Shown: positions 46,742 to 53,646 of the stretch, one piece after another
Layout: the number at the start of each line of letters is the position of its first letter
Position numbering within the stretch: the stretch's first letter is position 1
Origin: Xanthobacteraceae bacterium
Lineage (GTDB): Bacteria; Pseudomonadota; Alphaproteobacteria; Rhizobiales; Xanthobacteraceae
Reading direction: 5' to 3'
Assembly: GCA_022844485.1 (NCBI GenBank)
Contig: JALHLQ010000013.1
Location: 1 to 64,000, forward strand
DNA length: 64,000 nt
The notes under the pieces: model-generated
The model's database searches: none
What the model was told of the DNA's origin: nothing
Seen by the model: only the letters and a program-made list of their open reading frames with translations
Translations under genes and position numbers: made by a program

Positions 46742-49336
46742 TTAGAGCGTCCGCTGCACTGTTTCCACGCGATAGCACTCGATCGTGTCGCCGGCGCGCA
46801 TGTCCTGATAGTTCTCGAACGCCATGCCGCATTCCTGACCCGCGAGCACCTCGCGCGCGTCGTCCTTGAACCGCTTGAGCTGCGATAGCTTGCCTTCGTG
46901 GATGACGACGTTGTCGCGTATGAGCCGCACATGAGCTCCGCGCTCGACTACGCCATCGGTGACGCGGCATCCGGCGACCTTGCCGACCTTCGAGACTCCG
47001 AAGATTTCGAGAATGATCGCGTTGCCGAGCGTCGTCTCGCGCACGGATGGCGCAAGCAGGCCCGACATCGCCTTTTTCACATCGTCCACGAGGTCGTAGA
47101 TGATGTTGTAGTAGCGGATCTCGATGCCGGCGCGATCGGCCGCCTCGCGCGCTTCCTTGTGGGCGCGCACGTTGAAGCCGATAACCGCCGCGCCCGAGGC
47201 CTCGGCCAGGGTCACATCGGATTCCGTTATGCCGCCGACACCGGCATGAATCACCCGCGCGCCGACCTCCTCGGTGCCGAGCTTGTCGAGCGCGCCCATG
47301 ATGGCTTCAAGCGACCCCTGCACGTCGCCTTTCACGATGAGCGGGAATTCCTTGCGCCCTGACGCCTTGAGCTGGCTCATCATCTGCTCGAGCGAGCCGC
47401 GCATTCCGGTGGCGCGGGCGGCGATTTTCTCCCGCTTCTGACGGGCGCGATAGGCGGTGACTTCTCGGGCGCGCGCTTCGCTGTCGACGATCGCCAGCCG
47501 GTCGCCAGCTTCCGGCGTTCCGTTGAAGCCGAGCACCTCGACCGGCGCGGAAGGGCCGGCCTGTTCGATGGTCGCGCCCGTATCCGAGACCAGGGCGCGC
47601 ACGCGGCCCCATTCGGCCCCGGCGACGACGATGTCGCCCTGCTTCAGCGTGCCGCGCTGGACGAGAACGGTGGCGACAGGGCCGCGGCCGCGGTCGAGCT
47701 TGGCTTCGATCACGGTGCCCTCGGCCGGACGCTTCGGATTCGCCCTGAGGTCGAGGATCTCCGCCTGCAAGCCAATCGTCTCGAGCAGTTTGTCGAGGTT
47801 GAGTTTCTTTGTCGCCGAGACTTCGATTTCGAGCGTGTCGCCGCCCAGCGACTCGACCTGCACCTCATGCTGCAACAGTTCCGTCCGCACGCGCTCCGGA
47901 CGCGCATCGGGCTTGTCGATCTTGTTGATGGCGACGATCATCGGCACCTTTGCGGCCTTCGCATGGTGGACAGCCTCCACCGTCTGCGGCATCACGCCGT
48001 CATCCGCGGCCACCACGAGGACGACCAGGTCGGTCACGCGCGCACCTCGCGCGCGCATCGCCGTGAAGGCAGCGTGGCCCGGCGTGTCGATGAACGTGAT
48101 TTTCGCACCTGACGGCGCCTGCACCTGATAGGCGCCGATATGCTGCGTGATGCCGCCCGCTTCGCCTCCGGCGACGTTCGTCGTCCTGATCGCATCGAGC
48201 AGCGACGTCTTGCCATGGTCGACATGGCCCATGATGGTGACGACCGCCGGACGCGGCACGAGATCGGCCGGGTCATCGGCAACGTCGAACAATCCTTCTT
48301 CGACGTCGGACTCGGCGACGCGCCGGACCGTATGACCCATCTCCTCGGCAATGAGCTGCGCCGTGTCCGCATCGATTGAATCGGTGATCTTGGCCATATG
48401 CCCCTGCTTCATCAGCAGGCGGATCACATCGACCGCGCGTTCGGCCATGCGGTTCGCGAGTTCCTGGATCGTAATGCTCTCCGGGATCGTGACGTCTCGG
48501 ATCAACTTTTCCTTGGTGTCGTCGACGGCCTGGCCTTTCAGACGCTGGACGCGCCGGCGGAAGGAGGCCACGGAACGCTCACGCTCCTCGTCGGCGGTGA
48601 GCGCGGTCACCAGCGTCAGCCGGCCACGCCGTTTTTCCGGTGTTGTCCGGGTCGGCTTCGGAACGGCAGGAGCGGCGCGTCCGGCGCCGGCCCCGCGGCG
48701 CGCGGGCCTGCGCGTCTCTTCATCTTCGGGTTCGGGCGTGACGGTGCGGGCTGTCAGACCTGTGGTGCCTGCCGCCTTCTTCGCTTCGTCGTCTCCGAAG
48801 CGCTTCTTGGCCTCCTGCTCCGCCTTGCGCTTGGTTTCTTCATCGTGGCGCCGGCGATCTTCTTCGTCGCGCTTGCGCGCTTCAGCGGCCTCGCGCTCGG
48901 TGCGCTCTTTCGCATCGCGATCGGCGCGGCGGCGCGCCTCTTCCTCGGCGTGCTTGCGCTCCTCCGCTTCTCGAACGCGAGCGTCGGCCAAGGCGTGCGC
49001 GCGCAGGCTCCGTTCTTCCTCCGTCAGCGTCCGAAGCACGACGCCAGAGGGTTTCAAAGCCGACGCGGTCTGGGGGGCGGCCGCCTGCGCGGTGGGTGCC
49101 GCGCGCCCCGAAGGCGTCCGCGTCGGAGTGGGCTTCTCGAGCGGGGCTGGGGCCTCGGCCTTGGATTCGGCAGGGCCTCCGCCGCGGCGCTTCACCTTCT
49201 CGACCACCACCGCCTTCGTGCGGCCATGGCTGAAGCTCTGCCGGACCACGCCCTGCTCGACGCCGCGCTTGAGCGACAAGGTCTTGCCTGAGCCAACACT
49301 CAGCTTTTTTTCACCCGGAGTCTTCGTCTCTGTCAT
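46742..49336 (-). CDS. infB: translation initiation factor IF-2
   Basis: GTPase that brings initiator tRNA to the 30S subunit. The first 290 or so residues are a charged, alanine-rich and coiled-coil extension (many RERAAEARKR-like runs), typical of alphaproteobacterial IF-2. The G domain starts [16 protein letters not shown], with DTPGHAAF and NKIDKPDA; domains II to IV follow. 864 residues. Internal starts giving a shorter form are possible, as in E. coli. Confidence 0.98.
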
Positions 49337-49338
49337 AC

Positions 49339-50037
49339 TTACCTTTGGTCCGCGCGATCGCGGGTTGGCGTCTTTCGTTCATCCAAACTTGGCCCCGGGC
49401 TATCCAAGAACCGTTCGAGCCGCCGCCAACGGTCGAGAAATCCCTGACTGGCAGACCCCGCGAGCAGGGCTGCATGTACCACATTTGACCGGCCCAATGC
49501 CAAATCCAATTGCTGCGAGGTAAACGAACAAACGATTGGGAGGCGTTCTCCATCGTCGCCGTATCGCCGCCGCACGGTTCCTGCGAGCTTGCGGCGGCCT
49601 TCCAGGCTCGCATCGCTCGCCGTGATGAGACCGGCAAGTTCGCCGCTCTCGATTGTTGCTTCCACCTTGGCGAACCCGATCTTCACTTGGCCGGCCTTGT
49701 TCGCGATCGCAAGAGCATCGAGCGCATGGCGCTGCATGAGTTGCGCCACGCGATCCGGAAGATCAGGGGGCGCTTTCATATCCGCCTTGAGCGCCCGCGC
49801 AAACAGATTGCGCCGGACGGCCTCGCCGATCGAGGACCGATCGGCCGTGACCCACACGCCGCGGCCCGGCAGCTTTCGCTTGAGGTCCGCCACGACCGTT
49901 CCATCCGGTCCGGCGACAAACCGGATCAGCTCCTGCGTCGGTTTGACTTGGCGCGCGACGATGCACAGCCGCTGCAGGGCAGCGCCCGCCTCGCGCACGC
50001 CCTCGTCCGCAGCAGCCTCTTCCGCGCTTGCCAGCAT
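49339..50037 (-). CDS. YlxR-family RNA-binding protein with L7Ae-like domain
   Basis: 232 residues. The YlxR (DUF448) domain occupies about 20-95, with [11 protein letters not shown] and [14 protein letters not shown]; a second part from about 100 ([20 protein letters not shown]) looks like an L7Ae/YlxQ fold. Two genes of Firmicutes operons are thus joined, as usual in alphaproteobacteria. It lies two bases from infB and three from nusA. Thought to bind RNA; exact function unknown. Confidence 0.88.
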
Positions 50038-50040
50038 TGA

Positions 50041-51648
50041 TCAGACGCTTTCCTCCACGTTGTCCTGCTCCACCTCCTCGGCCGGACGGGCGAGATCGGC
50101 CTCGCTGATCCAGCCGGCCTTGACGCGCGCCTGCATGATCAAGGATTCGCACTCCTCCTGCGACAGGTCGAAGCCGTCCAGAATGCCGGGCTGCCTGACG
50201 GCCTCCCCATCCTTTCGCTCGGTCCATCCCGCGAGATCGTCCGTCGCGCAGCCCGCGAGATCTTCGACCGTCTTGATCTCGTTCTCGCCGAAGGCGACAA
50301 GCATCCTCATTGTCACGCTCGGCACCTCCGCCAGCGCGTCTTCGACCCCGAGTTCCTGTCGGCGGGCGTCGTATTCCGCCTCGATCTGCGCGAGATAATC
50401 GCGGGCGCGGGCCTGGAGTTCCTGTGCGGTGTCCTCATCGAAGCCTTCGATCGAGGCAAGTTCTTTGAGCTCGACATAGGCCAGTTCTTCGATCGAGGTG
50501 AACCCTTCCGAGGCGAGAAGCTGGGCGACGACTTCGTCAACATTGAGCGCATTGACGAAGATCTTCGTGCGATTCTCGAACTCGGCTTGGCGTCGCTCCG
50601 ATTCTTCCTGTTCGGTCAGGATGTCGATGTCCCATCCGGTGAGTTGGGAAGCGAGTCGCACATTCTGACCGCGGCGGCCGATCGCAAGCGAAAGCTGCTG
50701 GTCGGGAACAACGACCTCGATGCGCTCGCGGTCCTCGTCGAGCACGACCTTTGCGACTTCCGCCGGCGCGAGCGCATTGACGACGAAGGTCGCGATATCG
50801 GGCGACCACGGAATAATGTCGATTTTCTCGCCCTGCAGTTCGTTCACCACCGCCTGCACGCGCGAGCCGCGCATGCCGACGCAAGCGCCGACAGGGTCCA
50901 CCGACGAATCTCGGGAAATCACGGCGATTTTCGCGCGCGACCCGGGATCGCGGGCGACCGCCCTCACCTCGACGATGCCGTCATAGATCTCGGGTACTTC
51001 CTGCGCAAAAAGCTTGGCCATGAACTGCGGATGCGTGCGCGAGAGAAAAATCTGCGGCCCGCGCGTCTCCCGTCGGACGTCGTAGATATAGGCGCGAATC
51101 CGGTCGCCGTTGCGGAAAACCTCGCGCGGCAGCATTTCGTCGCGGCGAACGATCGCTTCGCCGCGCCCGAGATCGACGACGACGTTGCCGTACTCGACCC
51201 GCTTGACGATGCCGTTCACGATGTCGCCGATGCGGTCCTTGTATTCCTGATACTGCCGGTCGCGCTCGGCCTCCCGCACCTTCTGCACGATGACCTGCTT
51301 TGCCGACTGCGCGGCAATCCGGCCGTATTCGAGAGGGGGCAGCGTGTCGGCGATGGAATCGCCGATTTGCGCGGCCGGGTTGTGCCGCCGCGCTTCATCA
51401 AGGCCGATCTGCGTTGATGGATTTTCCACCTGGTCGACGACGAGAAGATGGCGCGAGAGCCGCAGCTCCCCCGTCTTCGCATTGATCTCGGCATGCACAT
51501 CCGTCTCGCTTCCGTAGCGCGAGCGCGCCGCCTTGGCGATCGCGTCCTCCATGGCGGTGATGACGATGCCGCGATCGATCGCCTTCTCGCGGGCGACCGC
51601 CTCGGCGATCTGCAGCAATTCGAGCCGGTTTGCGCTGACGGCAGCCAT
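50041..51648 (-). CDS. nusA: transcription termination/antitermination factor NusA
   Basis: RNA polymerase-bound factor for pausing, termination and antitermination. The N-terminal domain (ANRLELLQIAEAVAREKAID) is followed by S1 (about 135-200), two KH domains (AVISRDSSVDPVGACVGMRG; LSLAIGRRGQNVRLASQ) and two C-terminal helix-hairpin-helix repeats. 535 residues. It follows rimP by three bases. A terminator hairpin in the operon leader may be a site of its own control. Confidence 0.98.
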   Translation of the reverse strand: MAAVSANRLELLQIAEAVAREKAIDRGIVITAMEDAIAKAARSRYGSETDVHAEINAKTGELRLSRHLLVVDQVENPSTQIGLDEARRHNPAAQIGDSIADTLPPLEYGRIAAQSAKQVIVQKVREAERDRQYQEYKDRIGDIVNGIVKRVEYGNVVVDLGRGEAIVRRDEMLPREVFRNGDRIRAYIYDVRRETRGPQIFLSRTHPQFMAKLFAQEVPEIYDGIVEVRAVARDPGSRAKIAVISRDSSVDPVGACVGMRGSRVQAVVNELQGEKIDIIPWSPDIATFVVNALAPAEVAKVVLDEDRERIEVVVPDQQLSLAIGRRGQNVRLASQLTGWDIDILTEQEESERRQAEFENRTKIFVNALNVDEVVAQLLASEGFTSIEELAYVELKELASIEGFDEDTAQELQARARDYLAQIEAEYDARRQELGVEDALAEVPSVTMRMLVAFGENEIKTVEDLAGCATDDLAGWTERKDGEAVRQPGILDGFDLSQEECESLIMQARVKAGWISEADLARPAEEVEQDNVEESV

Positions 51649-51651
51649 TGC

Positions 51652-52311
51652 TCAGTCTCCTTCGATTTGTGCGCCGCGCCGGCCTGTGCCGGACGGACGC
51701 TGCCTGTTATCCTTTTGGCGGCGGGAATGGCCGGTTTCCCTCCTGCCGTTGCTGACCTTCTCGCGTTTGAGCGCGTCGTTGATCAGGGCGTCGGTAAGCA
51801 CGAGCCGCGCTTCCGCCATATCCTCGATCGGGAGCAGCACCTCGGCCGCCGCATCCGCCGGCGCGTCGGGCAAGTGCAGCTTTGCCGTATCGCCCTCGGT
51901 CCCCAGCAGCAAGCCGCGAAACCGCTTTCGACCCTGCACCGCGATGGCCATCTCGATCTTGACCTCGTGCCCGGCAAAGCGGTCGAAATCCGAACGGCGC
52001 GTCAGCGGCCGATCGAGCCCGGGTGAGGAAACCTCGAGACGATAGGCCCGCTCGATCGGGTCGGCAGCATCCAGGACCGGCGACAGCGCCCGCGAGGCTG
52101 CCTCGCAATCTTCAATGCGCATCGTGCCGTCGGGGCGCTCGGCCATGACCTGCACCGTGCAGCCGTCGCCCCCCGACACGCGCACCCGCACCAGCCGCAG
52201 CCCGAGCTCGGCCAGGACAGGCTCGCTGATTGCGGCAACCCGCGCCGCAAGCCCGGCCTCGGTGATCAGCCGCGGTTCGCCCTGCATTTGTGCGGCGTCC
52301 AGATGGATCAT
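51652..52311 (-). CDS. rimP: ribosome maturation factor RimP
   Basis: Assists 30S assembly. The core has [33 protein letters not shown] and [20 protein letters not shown], the family signature; a basic tail ends the protein. 219 residues from the ATG at 52311, which has no strong ribosome site; the frame stays open upstream through the leader, but that part is non-family. First gene of the nusA operon. Confidence 0.93.
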
Positions 52312-52346
52312 TGCTGCTGCAAGAGTCCGGGTCCGTTGCGGGTAAC

Positions 52347-52376
52347 AAAAAAGAGCGGGTCCCGGGGGGCCCACTC
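52347..52376 (-). terminator. intrinsic terminator in the rimP-nusA leader (attenuator candidate)
   Basis: On the minus strand GAGTGGGCCCC (52376-52366) and GGGACCCGCTC (52363-52353) form an eleven-pair stem with one mismatch and one G-U, directly followed by six Us (52352-52347). It lies 36 bases before the rimP ATG and after the likely promoter, so it would stop transcription before the first gene. No minus-strand gene lies just upstream for it to terminate. Confidence 0.7.
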
Positions 52377-52377
52377 T

Positions 52378-52396
52378 CGATATCCGACCGATATCG
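52378..52396 (-). promoter_or_regulatory. second leader hairpin, upstream of the attenuator
   Basis: CGATATC (52378-52384) and GATATCG (52390-52396) are perfectly complementary around five bases. It is transcribed just before the terminator stem, one base away, so it could stack on it or pause the polymerase. Confidence 0.5.
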
Positions 52397-52424
52397 GCCG
52401 TTATGAGATCGTGAAGTTGGCGCC

Positions 52425-52452
52425 AATATAGCGGTACCCGGCGGATTTGCAA
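52425..52452 (-). promoter_or_regulatory. promoter of the rimP-nusA-infB operon
   Basis: On the minus strand TTGCAA (52452-52447) and TATATT (52430-52425) are 16 bases apart, a good sigma-70-type match. It would give a leader of about 105 bases holding both hairpins. Confidence 0.6.
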
Positions 52453-52477
52453 GGGTTTCGGAGACATCGCGGGACGG

Positions 52478-52493
52478 TTAGCACTTCGTTAAC
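52478..52493 (+). promoter_or_regulatory. CtrA-box-like sequence
   Basis: TTAG (52478-52481), seven bases, TTAAC (52489-52493) matches the TTAA-N7-TTAAC binding pattern of CtrA in all but one base. It lies 53 bases before the DUF2336 start and about 26 bases from the -35 box of the opposite nusA promoter. A match this short can occur by chance. Confidence 0.35.
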
Positions 52494-52545
52494 GCTCGCG
52501 GCTCTAGCCTTTGGCCTGGTTAGCCCGCGGGAACACAGAACAGCA

Positions 52546-53646
52546 ATGCCCGCCATCACCTCGCTGATTCCGGAGCTGGAGGAAGCCCTCGAGCACGGCT
52601 CGATCGAGCAGCGCGAGCGGACGCTGGAGCGCGTGACCGCGCTCTTCCTGCAAGGCGCCCCGCGTTTCAGCGAAGACCATGTCGAATTGTTTGACGATGT
52701 TCTCAGCCGCCTCATCATCGAGATCAGCAAGCGTGCGCTGGTCGAACTCTCAACCCGGCTTGCGCCCGTCCAGAACGCTCCGGTGATGGTCTTGCGCCGT
52801 CTCGCCCGTGACGACGACATTGCGGTTGCTGGCCCGGTACTCGTTCAATCGAAGCGCCTGACCGATTTCGATCTCATCGACATTGCCCATTCGCATGGAC
52901 CGGCGCATCTCCTGGCCATATCCAGCCGCGCCGAGCTGAGCACGGGGGTGACCGACATTCTGGTGAGCCGTGGCGATCGCGACGTGTTGCGCAACGTGAC
53001 CAACAATGAAGGCGCGCGGCTGTCCGGCACGAGCTACGAGGTGCTGGTGCGCCGCGCCGAACAAGATGGGCTTCTGGCCGAGCGTGTCGCTCAGCGCTCG
53101 GATATTCCGCCGCAGCTGTTTCGCACGCTGCTCACGCAGGCCACGGATGTCGTGCGTCAGAAACTCCTCGCCTCGACCCGGCCGGAACGGCGGGAGGAGA
53201 TTCGGCGCATCATCGCCAAGGTGGCACGCGAAGTCGGAAGCAAGCCGCCGCATCGCGACTTCGCCTCCGCGCAGCAATCAGTTTTCGCTCTCCACAAGGC
53301 GGGGAAACTCGGAGAAGCGCAACTCTCCGCCTTCGCAAAGGCCGGGCAGTATGAGGAAACGGCCGCGGCCCTGTCAGCGCTTTGCAAGATACCGGTCGAT
53401 GTGGTCGACCGTCTCATGAGCGGCGACCGACCCGACCCGGTCCTCATCATGTGCAAGGCGATCGGGTTTGAATGGTCGACAGTGCGCCCGGTGATGCTGG
53501 TGCGTCCCGAGGGGCATCGCATGTCGCCGAAAACGATCGACACCGCGCTGGCCAATTTCGACCGTTTGTCGCTGACGACCGCCGAACGGGTCTTGCGTTT
53601 CTGGCAGGTGCGGCAGAGTCACTTGGCGGAGTCTGTGCAAGTCTGA
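52546..53646 (+). CDS. DUF2336 domain-containing protein
   Basis: 366 residues, mostly helical, with the DUF2336 repeat-like region over about 30-250: LSRLIIEISKRALVELSTRLA, PVLVQSKRLTDFDLIDIAH, VTDILVSRGDRDVLRNVTNNEGA. No catalytic motif or membrane helix is visible. The family is alphaproteobacterial and uncharacterised as far as I know. The ATG at 52546 is chosen; upstream frame is the intergenic region. Its 3' end overlaps trmB's by 28 bases, tail to tail. Confidence 0.85.
   Translation: MPAITSLIPELEEALEHGSIEQRERTLERVTALFLQGAPRFSEDHVELFDDVLSRLIIEISKRALVELSTRLAPVQNAPVMVLRRLARDDDIAVAGPVLVQSKRLTDFDLIDIAHSHGPAHLLAISSRAELSTGVTDILVSRGDRDVLRNVTNNEGARLSGTSYEVLVRRAEQDGLLAERVAQRSDIPPQLFRTLLTQATDVVRQKLLASTRPERREEIRRIIAKVAREVGSKPPHRDFASAQQSVFALHKAGKLGEAQLSAFAKAGQYEETAAALSALCKIPVDVVDRLMSGDRPDPVLIMCKAIGFEWSTVRPVMLVRPEGHRMSPKTIDTALANFDRLSLTTAERVLRFWQVRQSHLAESVQV

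Follow-up and report, generated by a model that had tools for sequence, protein, structure and literature searches.

The rimP-nusA-infB operon of this Xanthobacteraceae genome is preceded by a leader in which the initial annotation noted a promoter, a hairpin and an intrinsic terminator, which raises the question of how much transcription passes the leader and reaches rimP. The window is the whole stretch of DNA that was analysed, 64,000 nt in length, and the leader lies on its minus strand. The leader is likely to be a transcription attenuator of the operon, in which an antiterminator competes with a terminator that forms by default.

Promoter, terminator and operon in the window

The operon order, assigned by Pfam, is rimP-nusA-ylxR-infB-rbfA-truB-rpsO. 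The genes are all on the minus strand: rimP (51652-52311, with its ATG at 52311; PF02576 and PF17384), nusA (50041-51648; PF08529 and PF13184), ylxR (49339-50037; PF04296), infB (46742-49336; PF11987, PF00009 and PF04760), rbfA (46670-46251; PF02033), truB (46254-45247; PF01509) and rpsO (45274-44975; PF00312). A pnp-like reading frame (polynucleotide phosphorylase) is next after rpsO and runs from 44743 downward on the same strand, as in E. coli. The operon products are NusA, IF2 and 30S assembly factors, so the leader may couple transcription control with ribosome building.

The promoter of the initial annotation, TTGCAA-N16-TATATT, was confirmed at 52425-52452 on the minus strand. The -35 element is at 52452-52447 and the -10 element at 52430-52425, with a 16-nt spacer and a consensus score of 9 out of 12. 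The statement that no minus-strand gene lies just upstream was also correct, as the gene placed between trmB and rimP is a DUF2336 gene on the plus strand (52447-53646), divergent from rimP. Since this nearest upstream gene points away, the operon transcript in the window's genome would most obviously come from the TTGCAA/TATATT promoter. The best promoter-like pairs in relatives score 8.0 on average versus 6.9 in shuffles, and TATATT is the commonest -10 element (26 of 58 relatives). The predicted promoter is, by sequence comparison, kept together with the terminator among relatives.

The GC-rich stem of 11 bp and the six Us noted before the rimP ATG are present, with one bulge and one U·G pair. 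The stem (AGAGUGGGCCC / GGG-A-CCCGCUCU, loop CCC) occupies 52352-52377 on the minus strand, with the 5' arm at 52377-52367 and the 3' arm at 52363-52352; A52360 is bulged and T52373-G52356 forms the wobble. As a motif, it reads GUGGGCCC...GGG-A-CCCGC and then Us. The U-run (52347-52352) consists of six Ts, the first of which also pairs in the stem, and the gap from the terminator to rimP is 35 nt. The terminator segment folds with -19.3 kcal/mol (z -3.7), and none of 200 shuffles folded equally well. A simple terminator scan of the window does not pick up this terminator, probably due to the limits of the scan on bulges and loops.

From the spacing to the -10 element, transcription would start at about 52418, and a transcript terminated at the U-run would be a short leader RNA of approximately 72 nt (52347-52418, minus strand). 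The fold energy of the whole 109-nt leader is unremarkable (z -1.1 versus shuffles). A leader peptide was rejected because the window sequence contains no ATG from the predicted start to the terminator. Two further elements were noted in the family. A conserved [G/A]TTACC follows the U-run (52347-52341; relatives L017, L035 and L039), beyond the predicted end of the RNA. Many family members also carry an extra small hairpin at the predicted 5' end of the leader (such as AUCCG..GGAU or GUCU..AGAC), which is absent in the window; in L017, L035, L043, L025 and L024 a small extra hairpin is sited just upstream of the box described below.

A terminator in this position could also insulate the operon against upstream transcripts or give rise to a trans-acting small RNA. 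An RNA of about 72 nt would indeed arise by termination, and the rimP leader of E. coli and Salmonella is among the attenuator-derived RNAs associated with ProQ (PMC5391140). However, the promoter precedes the terminator and is conserved along with it, and the upstream gene in the window is divergent, which makes insulation or a small RNA highly improbable as the role of this leader.

Conservation of the terminator before rimP

RimP loci were picked by protein, independently of the leader, in 60 genomes drawn from the family and the order, giving 61 with the window. In 59 of these, rimP is preceded by a terminator with a G-rich arm, a C-rich arm and a U-run. A pattern identified 54 of them and inspection by eye the other five (L003, L016, L040, L046 and L058); no such leader stands before rimP in L013 and L061. 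Both this conservation and the fold energy support the intrinsic terminator of the initial annotation. Among the leaders of the order and family, AGAGUGGG...CCCGCUCUUUUU hardly varies. Exactly one copy of the pattern GAGTGGG-N3..24-CCCGCTCTTT is present in each of 49 of 120 order genomes, compared with 3 matches for the reversed control pattern. A longer form is single-copy in 18 of the 37 relatives searched, where the control gave 0 matches. In genomes common to the RimP set, the matches fall just before rimP. The R1 model, trained on relatives with the window included among its training sequences, found the leader as the only place in the 4.15-Mb genome (1.7e-12), the match covering 52417-52343 with 72.7 bits. 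The class-wide R1 search gave few matches, since per genome it scored 16 out of many first-look candidates, and it was not counted as evidence of absence.

Across the class, the strict pattern identified a GUGGG-type terminator at 61 of 90 RimP loci, and its usual form is GTGGGC...GCCC[A/G]CTTTTT. Clostridia loci, found through RimP alone, have AGTGGG...CCCGCTCTTTT or close forms. Five of these (L255, L256, L258, L266 and L272) have AGTGGG...CCCGCTCTTT nearly identical to the alphaproteobacterial leaders, which is unusual for a terminator. Most sphingomonad rimP loci (L239-L251) are without the GUGGG terminator; upstream of rimP they have a conserved CTCGACAT..GGTAAC, followed by GTTGAGG or similar. 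With a promoter-proximal intrinsic terminator in the operon's own leader, conserved class-wide, attenuation is the best reading of the locus.

Two readings start from the letters of the terminator rather than from its fold alone. In the first, the 3' arm and U-run (CGCUCUUUUU) would be a boxA for NusB/S10 antitermination, as these letters match the boxA core. Elsewhere in the class, however, the 3' arms are CCC[A/G]CTTTTT or CCCGCCTTTT, and L007 has CCCGCCCTTTT, with 5' arms that compensate. The stem noted in the initial annotation is thus conserved across relatives, while the boxA letters are not conserved independently of it, and boxA was rejected as a general reading; of all the explanations considered, this is the least probable.

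In the second, the NusA KH domains or another protein would read the single-stranded AGUGGG arm or an upstream CUCAUAA box, and any complementarity between them would be secondary. Six of the 11 terminator pairs are invariant in 44 leaders, the U·G wobble among them, and AGUGGG is found again in Clostridia, opposite a partner that varies as C-C-C-[A/G]-C. In addition, the CUCAUAA box appears to resemble boxC of M. tuberculosis rRNA, which NusA binds. The behaviour of the box in divergent families, given in the next section, speaks against a protein site there.

Predicted pairing of the terminator 5' arm with an upstream box

The initial annotation also described a perfect 7-bp, pause-like hairpin upstream of the terminator. 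The inverted repeat itself is there, as CGATATC (52396-52390) and GATATCG (52384-52378), but the pairing conserved in relatives is a different one, the inner hairpin P2 (52385-52400, minus strand), in which CGGCCG (52400-52395) and CGGUCG (52390-52385) enclose the loop AUAU. The hairpin makes more sense as a component of an antiterminator, which pairs with the terminator 5' arm, than as a pause element. The 5' strand of the antiterminator helix P1 is a box conserved in relatives, UCUCAUA (52402-52408), which pairs with 52378-52375 and 52382-52380, leaving C52379 bulged. In the 3' strand, UAU-C-GAGA (52375-52382), the last 4 nt are shared with the 5' arm of the terminator and the sequence flanking it. 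A possible 5' extension, UUCAC (52411-52415), pairs with GUGGG at 52374-52370.

The pairing of the box with UAU-C-GAGA is in the minimum free energy (MFE) structure of transcripts ending at 52374 to 52359, that is, before the 3' arm is complete. The UUCAC-GUGGG extension appears in transcripts ending at 52369-52359, and extensions of this type are weaker order-wide (mean z -0.56). With a complete 3' arm, the predicted folds favour the terminator by 3.7 kcal/mol (-30.0 versus -26.3 with P1 kept). In these models P1 excludes the complete terminator, so that one arm would have two mutually exclusive pairings. With P1 kept at -26.3 kcal/mol, an upper stem of 8 bp followed by UCUUUUUU can still form, and P1 may therefore weaken or tune termination rather than abolish or switch it.

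The same arrangement is predicted in relatives. When their transcripts are cut before the 3' arm, a box [U/C]CUCA (often UCUCAUAA) pairs with the 5' arm UGAGA around P2. In the family alignment 88.9% of the P2 cells are paired, with 10 double-change cells versus 3.5 expected, and none of 500 shuffles was as high. Column covariation of P1 in the aligned family was not above shuffles, as its bases are nearly invariant there. Because the columns are uninformative, P1 was tested by energy. When arm nucleotides -3 to -1 were made to pair inside the 40-nt stretch before them in 95 order leaders, the mean z was -1.69, against -0.04 further upstream and +0.13 downstream, these and the other z and significance values treating related genomes as independent. 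The arm-pairing increment alone gave z -1.54 with a leader's own arm and -0.40 with the arm of another leader. Where the arm differs from GAGA (23 leaders), z was -0.94 with the own arm and -0.49 with GAGA; a longest-gapless-helix test of P1 on non-GAGA arms was weak (p 0.09) and was replaced by the energy test. In the MFE structures, the arm is paired upstream in 81 of 95 order leaders when truncated, and the terminator is formed in 89 of 96 at full length.

Several joint changes of box and arm were found by eye. For example, UUCUU occurs with GAAGA in L010, L140 and L141 (the MFE structures of L140 and L141 favour another partner), UCUAGACA with UGUUUAGA in L115 and L116, and UUCAAGACA with UGUUUUGGA in L129. 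Also, CACUC occurs with GAGUG in L231-L237, and in L007 CACCUU occurs with AGGGUG and with CCCU in the 3' arm. These divergent families, together with the energy tests, are what the case for the antiterminator rests on. A box that changes with its arm (UCUU/AAGA, UCUAGACA/UGUUUAGA, CACUC/GAGUG) argues for pairing rather than for a fixed protein site at the box, and we regard a protein reading arm or box, with pairing secondary, as rather unlikely.

These results also bear on the view that the terminator alone attenuates, stimulated by NusA, with the upstream hairpin serving only as a 5' stabiliser or pause hairpin. For most bacteria no antiterminator has been described in the rimP-leader (PMC2965389), pairing of the arm is weak beyond the order (z -0.47 elsewhere in the class), and the part common to Clostridia is the terminator core. 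Within the order, however, the pairing of box and arm beats shuffles, control regions and foreign arms. In addition, families without a long P2 keep a bare UCUCA-loop-UGAGA mini-hairpin (L019 and L060), and a hairpin shrunk to this extent suggests that P1 is the essential part. A terminator acting alone is accordingly judged unlikely, slightly more so than the protein reading, and the competing antiterminator and terminator remain the preferred account.

Proposed mechanism and comparison with known systems

In the proposed mechanism, RNA polymerase would start near 52418, and in the nascent RNA UCUCAUA would first pair with UAU-C-GAGA around P2, forming an antiterminator from the 5' arm of the terminator. 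When the 3' arm CCCGCUCU has been made, the more stable GC-rich terminator could reclaim the arm, and transcription would stop at the U-run, at 52347. In cells the winning fold would set the amount of RNA reaching rimP, nusA and infB. Termination would be the default, an antiterminator holding the arm would give more read-through, and some factor would shift the balance between the folds. As modelled, this switch in the leader RNA probably stops most transcripts early.

The operon itself includes nusA, whose product stimulates intrinsic termination, and feedback by NusA has been reported for E. coli and proposed for S. agalactiae. For these reasons NusA acting back on its own operon is tentatively put forward as the likeliest effector, at somewhat less than even confidence; a ribosome-assembly factor, or no dedicated effector, are the alternatives. 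Something may also read the sequence of the 5' arm, as suggested by its invariance, which extends to a U that is paired with A in some members of the class and Clostridia and with G in others. The NusA feedback suggested in the initial annotation is therefore a fair hypothesis, although not a new one (PMC2965389; PMC4448216 for S. agalactiae). More speculatively, and with doubt, the Hyphomicrobiales rimP leader could act as a dedicated riboregulator, with the choice of the covarying antiterminator or the terminator made by NusA or by a signal from ribosome assembly, and with the AGUGGG arm as an ancient, phylum-spanning recognition sequence. If so, it would be a simple NusA autoregulation switch, open to direct test, and a family missing from Rfam.

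Searches of Rfam 15 with the leader and 12 relatives matched no family to the leader. A sub-threshold likeness to sbrA was weak (E 0.014, half the gathering score) and was set aside as generic terminator likeness, and guanidine-II matches occurred elsewhere only. RF01770 had no match in the window's genome at E 10, including the leader region; its highest score among the relatives was 30.8 bits, against a gathering score of 47 bits, and that match was off the rimP contig. A search of an open-licence library gave no paper that describes a rimP leader or its start site in Alphaproteobacteria, and the conserved competing hairpin and antiterminator of this order are apparently undescribed so far.

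Other rimP leaders differ from the window in several respects. First, the E. coli operon has terminators before rimP and NusA-dependent control and feedback (PMC6511841), but upstream of rimP its metY-nusA-infB leader contains metY, several promoters and two terminators, an arrangement absent from the leader described here. Secondly, the S. agalactiae operon gbs0413-gbs0418 gives short and long RNAs from one start, with NusA feedback proposed (PMC4448216), like the short terminated RNA and long operon transcript predicted here. Termination there is 31 nt after the start, compared with about 72 nt in the window, and thus leaves little room for an upstream hairpin. Third, some Gammaproteobacteria have a tandem design (PMC2965389; compare RF01770), which shares terminator/antiterminator logic before the rimP-leader hairpin but, unlike the window, has a second upstream terminator with the inverse CCCg...cGGG motif. 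Lastly, the terminator itself is, by its sequence and position, the already known rimP-leader attenuator of Naville and Gautheret (2010), described as the most ubiquitous predicted attenuator, for which NusA was named as the best effector candidate (PMC2965389). The gene and operon are the same, the distance before rimP is 4-130 nt (35 in the window), and both have a GGGc...gCCC stem, with a G-rich 5' arm and a C-rich 3' arm, followed by Us; where the motif has a small g, the window has the bulged A and some relatives have G or C. While no visible antiterminator was reported for the general rimP-leader, leaders throughout this order carry an upstream box and hairpin predicted to pair with the terminator 5' arm, which offers a concrete two-state model for the rimP-leader that is amenable to paired mutations.
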